Assembly: GCF_024628865.1 (NCBI RefSeq)
Contig: NZ_CP102384.1
Coordinates: 3,731,001 to 3,795,000, forward strand
Source of the DNA: Sphingopyxis sp. DBS4
Lineage (GTDB): Bacteria > Pseudomonadota > Alphaproteobacteria > Sphingomonadales > Sphingomonadaceae
DNA length: 64,000 nt
Direction: 5' to 3'
In this document: in pieces, positions 6,097 to 7,609 of the stretch
Layout of the letters: each line of letters opens with the position of its first letter
Numbering within the stretch: position 1 is the first letter of the stretch
Translations under genes and position numbers: made by a program
The notes under the pieces: generated by a model
Database searches by the model: none
What the model was told of the DNA's origin: nothing
The model's input: the letters and a program-made list of their open reading frames with translations, nothing else

Positions 6097-6870
6097 TCAG
6101 GACTCCTGTGCGCCGTCGGCGGCCGCGGTGTCGACGACGGTTTCTTCGACCGGCGTTTCGACCGGCGCGTCAGCCGGGGCATCGTTGGTGTTGGCCGCGC
6201 TCTTGATGCCCGCCGGATAGGGGGCCTCGGGATGACGCGGCAGCTTCACCGCATCGCGGACGAGCAGCCAGCCGCCCTTCGAGCCAGGGACCGAGCCCTT
6301 GACGAAGAGAAGACCGCGCTCGACGTCGGTGCGGACGATTTCGAGATTCTGCTGGGTGCGATTGCGCGCGCCCATGTGGCCGGCCATCTTCTTGTTCTTG
6401 AAGACGCGGCCCGGATCCTGACGGTTACCGGTCGAACCATGCGCACGGTGGCTGATCGAAACACCGTGGGTCGCGCGCATACCGCCGAAACCCCAGCGCT
6501 TCATCGCACCGGCAAAGCCCTTGCCCTGCGTCACGCCCTGGATGTCGACGATCTGGCCGGCGACGAAATGGTCGGCCGAAAGCTCGGCACCGACGTCGAG
6601 CGTCGCGTCGTCGGCGACGCGGAATTCGACGAGCTTCGCCTTGGGCTCGACCTCGGCCTTGCCATAGGCGCCACGCTGCGGCTTGGCGACGTTCTTCGCC
6701 TTGGCCGAACCGGCACCCAGTTGAACGGCCACATAGCCGTCGCGGTCCTTATCGCGCACGGAGACGACCTGGCAGCCTTCGAGGCTCAGGACGGTGACGG
6801 GCACGTGGCGGCCGTCGTCCTGAAACAGGCGGGTCATCCCCATTTTCTTCGCGATCACGCCAGTACGCAT
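6097..6870 (-). CDS. rplC: 50S ribosomal protein L3 with acidic C-terminal extension
   Basis: L3 is an assembly initiator whose central loop reaches the peptidyl transferase centre. The ATG at 6870 is chosen because GAGGAG lies seven bases before it; ATGs at 6876 and upstream are too close to that site. The product starts [16 protein letters not shown] and has the L3 loop [18 protein letters not shown]. At 257 residues it is about 45 longer than the E. coli protein, owing to a Pro/Ala/Glu/Asp-rich tail after residue 225 or so. It is preceded by a 280-base structured gap. Confidence 0.96.
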
Positions 6871-6876
6871 GATCAT

Positions 6877-7150
6877 ACTCCTCAACAGAGGCCGGGCGGA
6901 CCATTCCGCACGGCTTGCGGGAAGCCAGCAGGCAAAGCCCGACGACTACCCTCCCAGCCCGTGATTTCGATGCATCGCCCCGTCCGGGCTGAGGTGCCGC
7001 CATCCCGAAGGAGAAGCGGCGAGACGGGGGACGCAGCCCGGTCTGAAATGCTTCCGGTGGAAGCGACCGGCGGTATCCACCCTATCGTGATGCAGGCGCC
7101 GAAGCGTCCTGCCGATAGAGACCCCCGCTTTCGCGGGGGCTGCGTTGGCC
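6877..7150 (-). ncRNA. Candidate structured 5' leader RNA of rplC (between rpsJ and rplC)
   Basis: This 280-base gap contains no ORF that resembles a protein, yet folds readily when read in the transcribed (minus) direction. Helices seen by eye, in plus coordinates: 7144-7160 across the rpsJ stop; 7122-7128 with 7133-7139 closed by GAAA; 7113-7118 with 7082-7087 enclosing an eight-pair UUCG-capped hairpin (7092-7112); 7050-7055 with 7059-7064; 7034-7041 with 6984-6991 enclosing a second UUCG-capped arm (6996-7020); and 6893-6897 with 6937-6941 enclosing 6912-6926. In E. coli the rpsJ-rplC gap is only tens of bases. A regulatory leader or processing region is my inference. Confidence 0.55.
7122..7139 (-). 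terminator. GC hairpin with GAAA loop just after rpsJ (attenuator or processing hairpin)
   Basis: Seven perfect GC-only base pairs closed by a GAAA tetraloop lie 12 bases after the rpsJ stop on the transcribed strand. No U-tract follows, so it is not a canonical intrinsic terminator. It may stabilise the 3' end of an rpsJ transcript or be the first helix of the rplC leader. Confidence 0.4.
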
Positions 7151-7462
7151 TTAGGCCAACTTGATCTCGACGTTCACGCCCGCGGCGAGGTCGAGCTTCA
7201 TCAGCGCGTCGACCGTCTGCGGGGTGGGCTGCACGATGTCGAGCAGCCGCTTGTGGGTACGCACCTCGAACTGCTCGCGCGACTTCTTGTCGATGTGCGG
7301 ACCGCGGTTCACGGTGAATTTCTCGATGCGCGTCGGCAGCGGGATCGGGCCGCGAATGAGAGCGCCCGTGCGACGTGCCGTATCGGCAATGTCGGTGGTG
7401 GCCTGATCGAGCACGCGGTGATCAAAGGCCTTCAGGCGAATGCGAATATTCTGCGTTTCCAT
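7151..7462 (-). CDS. rpsJ: 30S ribosomal protein S10
   Basis: S10 is in the 30S head and also acts as NusE in transcription antitermination complexes. The 103 residues begin [20 protein letters not shown] and contain [26 protein letters not shown] spread over two conserved blocks. It follows tuf by 147 bases, an order (tuf-rpsJ) common in alphaproteobacteria, and is followed by the long structured gap. Confidence 0.97.
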
Positions 7463-7565
7463 GACTTATCCAGTCGAATCCCGTCTGACGATGCGAAAGA
7501 GCCGAAATGGCCTGTCCCGACTTCCTATTGGAAGCCGGAGCGGCCATCAAAAACCTTTAAGCTAC

Positions 7566-7598
7566 GAGCCGCGCGAATCGATCCGAATCGCGCGGCTC
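7566..7598 (-). terminator. Strong hairpin downstream of tuf
   Basis: An 11-bp perfect stem (GAGCCGCGCGA and its complement) with an 11-base loop lies 11 bases after the tuf stop on the transcribed strand. A short run of T follows only about 13 bases later. It could partly terminate tuf transcripts or stabilise their 3' ends, leaving rpsJ to be fed by read-through or by its own promoter. Confidence 0.45.
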
Positions 7599-7609
7599 GC
7601 GGCCCTATA

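Follow-up and report, generated by a model that had tools for sequence, protein, structure and literature searches.

A candidate ribosomal protein leader with a predicted pseudoknot between rpsJ and rplC in the Sphingomonadaceae

In E. coli, the S10 leader is a structured RNA bound by ribosomal protein L4 that acts on both transcription termination and translation (PMC10931766). The same source describes the L4 site as conserved in enterobacteria, Haemophilus and Vibrio and not in Pseudomonas, a narrow distribution that leaves open how the S10 operon is balanced in most bacteria. Two further candidates are described by Eckert and Weinberg 2020 (PMC7247131): an L4 r-leader in Archaeoglobi, with rplC, rplD, rplW and rplB as regulated genes, which the authors rate as borderline, and an L2 r-leader in Alphaproteobacteria, whose regulated genes start at rplB. 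For Peptostreptococcaceae, the rpsJ motif RLC-47-1 is put forward as a candidate ribosomal leader, located in the 5' UTR of S10 (PMC11109978). Regulatory sites may also lie between the genes of an operon, and for E. coli intercistronic ribosomal protein (r-protein) sites are described between S12 and S7 and, for S8, between L24 and L5 (PMC2704228). Among the matches listed by our search of the open PMC literature, there was no report of an rplC leader in sphingomonads.

The window analysed here is a stretch of 64,000 nt from Sphingopyxis sp. DBS4. Its minus strand carries tuf, rpsJ, a gap of 280 nt, rplC and then more ORFs in operon order. The two genes that flank the gap we take to be rpsJ and rplC from their family and the operon order, and the names of tuf and the other operon ORFs are likewise our assumption. 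An earlier note on this DNA had counted 280 non-coding bases between rpsJ and rplC, and the coordinates confirm it, the gap running from 6871 to 7150 between the rpsJ stop codon (7151-7153) and the rplC ATG (6868-6870). The same note called the S10 cluster otherwise tightly packed, which is true from rplC down to about position 2500, where ORFs are spaced by 22 bases or fewer, but not upstream, where the tuf-rpsJ gap is also long at 147 nt. In folding stability, the transcribed strand of the 280-nt gap exceeds every one of 200 dinucleotide shuffles (z -3.91), in keeping with the structured RNA that the note had suspected, which also proved to be conserved and single-copy.

Some other features of the locus were seen in passing. 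The tuf-rpsJ gap (7463-7609 in the window) spans 40-390 nt in 120 loci; in the window it contains, on the minus strand, a strong inverted repeat with a T-run about a dozen bases on, a somewhat terminator-like arrangement after tuf. At 7122-7165, inspection by eye places the rpsJ stop codon in the loop of a small hairpin within the genus, with arms that seem to covary; next comes another GC hairpin that lacks a clear T-run, and whose stem has look-alikes elsewhere in many same-genus genomes. The L3 protein has an acidic, low-complexity C-terminal tail (encoded at the 6097-6170 end of the gene), which is presumably longer than that of E. coli L3.

A DNA search of 99 genomes gave matches in 58, all from the same genus and several of them to a short repeated stem only, and none in the 39 genomes from other families of the order. 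Within the genus, 54 gap loci were recovered from 53 of the 60 genomes searched (the window's own included). The gap is 203-323 nt long in all 54, with invariant base runs in the rplC-proximal half and a variable part nearer rpsJ; neither of the two outcomes that the earlier note held to count against a leader, namely that conservation is lacking or that close relatives have a short gap, was seen. Twenty-eight same-genus sequences were then made into a covariance model of 129 positions, with E-values that are rough. It matched 134 of 199 genomes of the family, from 64 of 96 genera, with one copy each. All 134 matches lie between rpsJ and rplC, in gaps of 158-383 nt, and an independent pattern scan of genome contigs yielded at least 119 loci, 119 of 119 between rpsJ and rplC on their strand (Sphingopyxis, Sphingomonas, Novosphingobium, Erythrobacter and Croceicoccus are among the matches listed). 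A consistent place just ahead of r-protein genes is what would be expected of an r-protein leader.

Beyond the family, the picture is different. Searching the order with the model returned 58 of 147 genomes, 57 of them in the same family; the one match outside it, in genome G337, is marginal (E 0.051) and lies near neither S10 nor L3. A second marginal match in this search, at G137:C1:273519-273618, had an E-value of 0.0864. In the class search, 6 of 240 genomes reached E <= 0.1, namely two from the family, one being that of the window itself, and four weak matches (E 0.0038-0.096) with neither rpsJ nor rplC in the fetched locus; as this search missed a known member (G188), its negatives are not proof. 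The length of the rpsJ-rplC gap was also read directly. In the order's other families it is 4-11 nt (nine of nine genomes), and in the rest of the class 4-75 nt (28 of 28 genomes, the best 28 of 55 non-family genomes by S10 similarity). The conservation that the earlier note had envisaged for Sphingomonadales at large is thus found within one family, and the short gap in the nine other-family genomes indicates that the RNA belongs to that family rather than to the whole order.

Thirty non-matching genomes were examined, of which 29 gave an S10 locus (none was obtained for G040) and 20 are in the same family. Among these 20, the gap is 239-341 nt in 11 and 37-107 nt in nine. With filters off, ten of the 11 long-gap genomes match the model at E < 0.05, the other (L211) reaching only E 0.8, while the nine short-gap genomes gave no model match. 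The 209 long-gap loci used below, which exclude the repeat-fetched L056-L060, L087 and L088, were fetched mostly because they match and so are not a random sample. Genome G041 yielded two different versions of the locus, on contigs C22 and C33 (L018 and L038); its stated contamination is 3%, and it may be a mixture.

Comparison of these sequences predicts an irregular hairpin (P0), an H-type pseudoknot with an inserted hairpin, and then a hairpin (H3) that abuts CUCUG and the Shine-Dalgarno (SD) sequence (table 1). The 5' side of P0 includes AUACC, which is nearly invariant and unpaired. The loop of stem S2 contains the 3' strand of stem S1, so that the two interlock, and among relatives S2 is found in the compensated forms AACCC/GGGUU and GGCCC/GGGCC. 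A conserved upstream ORF was considered and rejected: the 209 gap lengths are spread over the residues modulo 3 (78, 68 and 63), and an ATG in the pseudoknot loop is, by eye, not kept within the genus.

Table 1. Predicted elements of the RNA and its flanking genes, in the order of transcription (window coordinates).
Feature	Position	Strand	Basis or remark
rpsJ (ribosomal protein S10/NusE; presumed), directly upstream of the RNA	7151..7462	-	translation
P0, first irregular hairpin	7029..7078	-	outer helix co-change; H0 pairs
P0 outer helix, GGAU/GUCC	7078-7075 with 7032-7029	-	same-branch co-change
P0 inner pairs	7072-7071 with 7035-7034	-	P0 also has a small internal loop
H0, variable upper stem of P0	7070-7065 with 7043-7038	-	4 pairs at E < 0.05
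S1, pseudoknot stem (CCCGUC with GACGGG)	7028-7023 with 6984-6979 (span 6979..7028)	-	co-change
H1, inserted hairpin in the first pseudoknot loop	7020-7016 with 7000-6996 (span 6996..7020)	-	3 pairs at E < 0.05
S2, pseudoknot stem (CAGCCC with GGGCUG, extended)	6993-6986 with 6960-6953 (span 6953..6993)	-	co-change
Variable hairpin between pseudoknot and H3	6917..6952	-	no T-run in the window; an intrinsic terminator takes this place in 17 of 209 relatives
H3 hairpin, loop AUGG	6891..6914	-	stem-length scan against shuffles
CUCUG (6890-6886), then Shine-Dalgarno AGGAG (6882-6878)	6878..6890	-	can pair weakly together
rplC (ribosomal protein L3; presumed), first gene downstream of the RNA	6097..6870	-	translation

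Four tree-aware tests, which differ in strength, were applied to these helices. The first used a covariance-model alignment of 100 sequences, in which the outer helix, H0, H1 and S2, but not S1, had guided the fit. An R-scape-like test (our own script, not R-scape itself) found seven pairs at E < 0.05, all in H0 (4) or H1 (3); the best S2 pair had an E-value of 1.46 and nothing in S1 was significant. For the second, the same 100 sequences were aligned with MAFFT free of any structure, and the R-scape-like test put none of the pairs at E < 0.05. Single-pair same-branch tests on this alignment gave p = 0.0003 for each of two outer P0 pairs, p = 0.0007 each for pair 8-44 and one H0 pair, and p = 0.0017 for one S2 pair, with no support for S1 as a kept pair and little for H1, which varies in length and is misaligned. 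The third, an R-scape-like test of a sequence-anchored alignment of 201 loci (eight of the 209 failed to parse), again gave no pair at E < 0.05.

The fourth test counted co-changes on the same branch in the sequence-anchored alignment, using an independent tree built from the S10 and L3 proteins, with p = 0.0005 as the floor set by 2000 draws. The P0 outer helix showed 23 co-changes against 3.9 expected, 21 of which keep the pair (p = 0.0005), and S1 showed 12 against 3.3 expected, 10 keeping the pair (p = 0.0005). Within S1, the pair 7024-6983 occurs as U-A, C-G and A-U; both sides change on nine branches, against 1.6 expected, and all nine keep the pair. For S2 there were 83 co-changes against 39.3 expected, 38 of which keep the pair (p = 0.0005), some S2 rows being visibly mis-anchored; the S1/S2 pair count left out 13 of the 209 loci. 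S1 was not significant in the R-scape-like and MAFFT tests, in whose alignments it hardly varies. Support for S1 and S2 thus comes from the same-branch test on the S10+L3 tree, neither being significant in the R-scape-like tests, and we regard the pseudoknot predicted from these comparisons as having good support without being settled. A secondary structure that is conserved and shows covariation, as looked for in r-protein leaders, was found in the covariance-model and S10+L3-tree tests. Across the named pairs, G-U cells outnumber A-C cells by 428 to 30 (178 to 30 without three mostly G-U pairs), which argues that the fold is that of the RNA of the transcribed strand.

The covariation that the earlier note had asked for was therefore seen in the P0 outer helix, S1 and S2, but not in the eight-pair long-range helix that it had put forward, 7034-7041 with 6984-6991 (CCGGGCUG with CAGCCCGG). 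This helix showed 15 same-branch changes against 15.3 expected (p = 0.57) and drew no support from any of the four tests, the closest approach being one pair at p = 0.054. Both of its strands take part in other, covarying helices, so the fold is better explained by the pseudoknot. The helix had also suggested that CAGCCC might alternate between a partner upstream and one downstream; complementarity of the upstream strand is not maintained, so this switch was dropped as well. The UUCG and GAAA loops to which the note drew attention are present in the window but, judged by eye (H1 across the family, the hairpins nearer rpsJ within the genus), are not kept across the family.

At the rplC end of the gap, GCCUCUG or a close variant lies ahead of the SD in all 209 long-gap loci, with CUCUG itself in 201. 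The stem of H3, taken to end exactly at GCCUCUG, has at least eight pairs in 180 of 209 loci compared with 506 of 4180 shuffles, and its most common length is nine pairs compared with five in shuffles; the basis for H3 is this stem-length scan, the tree-aware tests having covered the other helices. All nine short-gap family members carry GCCUCUG too, preceded by a stem of 4-10 pairs that is eight or more pairs long in two of them. In these members, the motif goes beyond what shuffled sequence gives, and the hairpin, for most, does not. GCCUCUG is absent in the nine genomes of other families. Four of the nine short-gap members (L221, L224, L226 and L228) have ACGCGGAGCGA in common, by eye the apparent loop of a different hairpin before H3, and this hairpin is possibly an alternative sensor domain. 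In modelled folds, the SD is unpaired with a probability of 0.37 in 68 loci, against 0.50 with shuffled upstream sequence, a difference that comes largely from CCUCU, pairing with which accounts for 0.42 (102 loci); the SD would thus be partly occluded, to a modest degree.

A scan for intrinsic terminators flagged 24 of 209 long-gap loci and 38 of 2090 shuffles. The 17 of 209 in which the terminator directly follows S2 were kept by eye, and those lying elsewhere (L052, L089, L149, L153, L156, L165 and L191) were dropped. L184 and L190 look terminator-like by eye and were not flagged. There is no intrinsic terminator in the window.

We propose that this RNA is probably an autogenous, cis-acting r-protein leader within the S10 operon, with rplC and the genes that follow under its control and S10 beyond its reach. 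Starting from the conservation, fold, strand, gene context and family restriction established by sequence comparison, we infer regulation, ligand and direction of effect as follows. The gap would be transcribed with the mRNA; of 199 loci measured, nine have only 13-19 nt between the rpsJ stop and the start of the RNA, so that in these it should lie on the rpsJ transcript, with too little room for a promoter. P0 and the pseudoknot would form a sensor domain, and H3, CUCUG and the SD an output region before rplC. A downstream-encoded r-protein, when free of rRNA, would bind the sensor and lower the expression of rplC and later genes, acting on translation initiation in the window and, in some relatives, via the terminator after the pseudoknot. 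S10/NusE, encoded upstream, would escape this feedback. Weighing against the proposal are the modest occlusion of the SD, the lack of a terminator in the window and of sequence resemblance to rRNA (below), and the occurrence of GCCUCUG in nine family members that have no sensor.

Precedent makes L4 the first candidate for the ligand, an analogy that we hold tentatively and at somewhat less than even chances; L3, suggested by position, is possible but a weaker candidate. The RNA shares no 9-mer and no significant local alignment with the 6.1-kb rRNA stretch of its own genome (Smith-Waterman score 9.5 against a shuffled mean of 10.2), and this lack of sequence resemblance means that no mimicry of rRNA names a ligand. 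A supposed likeness of GAUACCGCC to 23S helix 89 was discarded, since the corresponding stretch in the same genome reads otherwise.

Other explanations fit less well. The RNA could conceivably be a constitutive element that senses nothing and sets relative output through processing, through the stability of the mRNA, or as a partial terminator and translation standby site. This would suit the hairpins in the gap, among them the GC-rich one just after rpsJ in the genus, and the GCCUCUG-SD end that stands alone in nine family members, but a stability hairpin needs no nearly invariant pseudoknot, and S1 and S2 co-change on the tree, so we consider it unlikely. Less probable still is an RNA that regulates rplC onward in response to a signal other than an r-protein, such as a metabolite, an ion, a tRNA or another factor. 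A riboswitch that answers to a given metabolite is often found ahead of several genes, whereas this RNA has one copy per genome, before the ribosomal operon in all 134 matches, although such a compact pseudoknot, with a nearly invariant, unpaired AUACC, is also what one might expect of a small-molecule aptamer. A promoter, for which there is room in the gap of most members, or some other DNA element whose hairpins are incidental is very improbable given the excess of G-U over A-C cells, the 13-19 nt spacer in nine of 199 loci and the co-change on the tree.

Returning to the autogenous leader, the S10+L3 tree bears on how it may have arisen. On this tree, which is weakly supported at several nodes, the leaderless genomes fall outside, eight of the nine short-gap members diverge early within the family, and the remainder consists of pseudoknot bearers, among which the short-gap L213 is nested and may represent a loss. 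This branching order suggests an output region that predates the pseudoknot, and the occurrence of GCCUCUG without the putative sensor in nine family members points to a role of its own. A more specific version, which we hold to be rather doubtful, is a two-part regulator assembled stepwise within the family (GCCUCUG-SD, then sensor) that splits the S10 operon, with S10/NusE escaping, and that answers to uL3; we know of no bacterial leader answering to uL3.

The RNA described here provides a candidate leader in an alphaproteobacterial family, present in most of its sampled genomes, and its predicted fold is specified closely enough to be tested with compensatory mutants. The way it is distributed points to an ordered series of no leader, output region only, full pseudoknot, and pseudoknot plus terminator, a series that lets one study how an RNA regulator is built.

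In comparison with known systems, the RNA matches no catalogued family: it reaches threshold with no Rfam model, and its position is not that of the E. coli S10 leader. The Rfam search that the earlier note had recommended gave no match at the gathering score in the window with Rfam 15, two sub-threshold matches only in the gap region (E 0.29 and 2.4), and one only in nine relatives (E 0.3). Like the E. coli S10 leader, it is a structured RNA on an S10 operon, but, as the note had correctly pointed out, the E. coli leader precedes rpsJ while the sphingomonad RNA follows it, and here the predicted fold is a pseudoknot (cf. PMC10931766); an intrinsic terminator, expected in a leader of the E. 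coli type, is found in 17 of 209 relatives and not in the window. From its description, RLC-47-1 is also in the S10 region, and differs in taxon and in its place ahead of the S10 gene (PMC11109978). The Alphaproteobacteria L2 candidate comes from the same class and operon region, and is set apart by its description in that it precedes rplB, whereas our RNA precedes rplC. The Archaeoglobi L4 candidate, likened by description, would share the regulated genes from rplC onward and differs in being archaeal (PMC7247131). The E. coli intercistronic sites, as they are described, likewise lie inside an r-protein operon, in other operons and with other ligands (PMC2704228).
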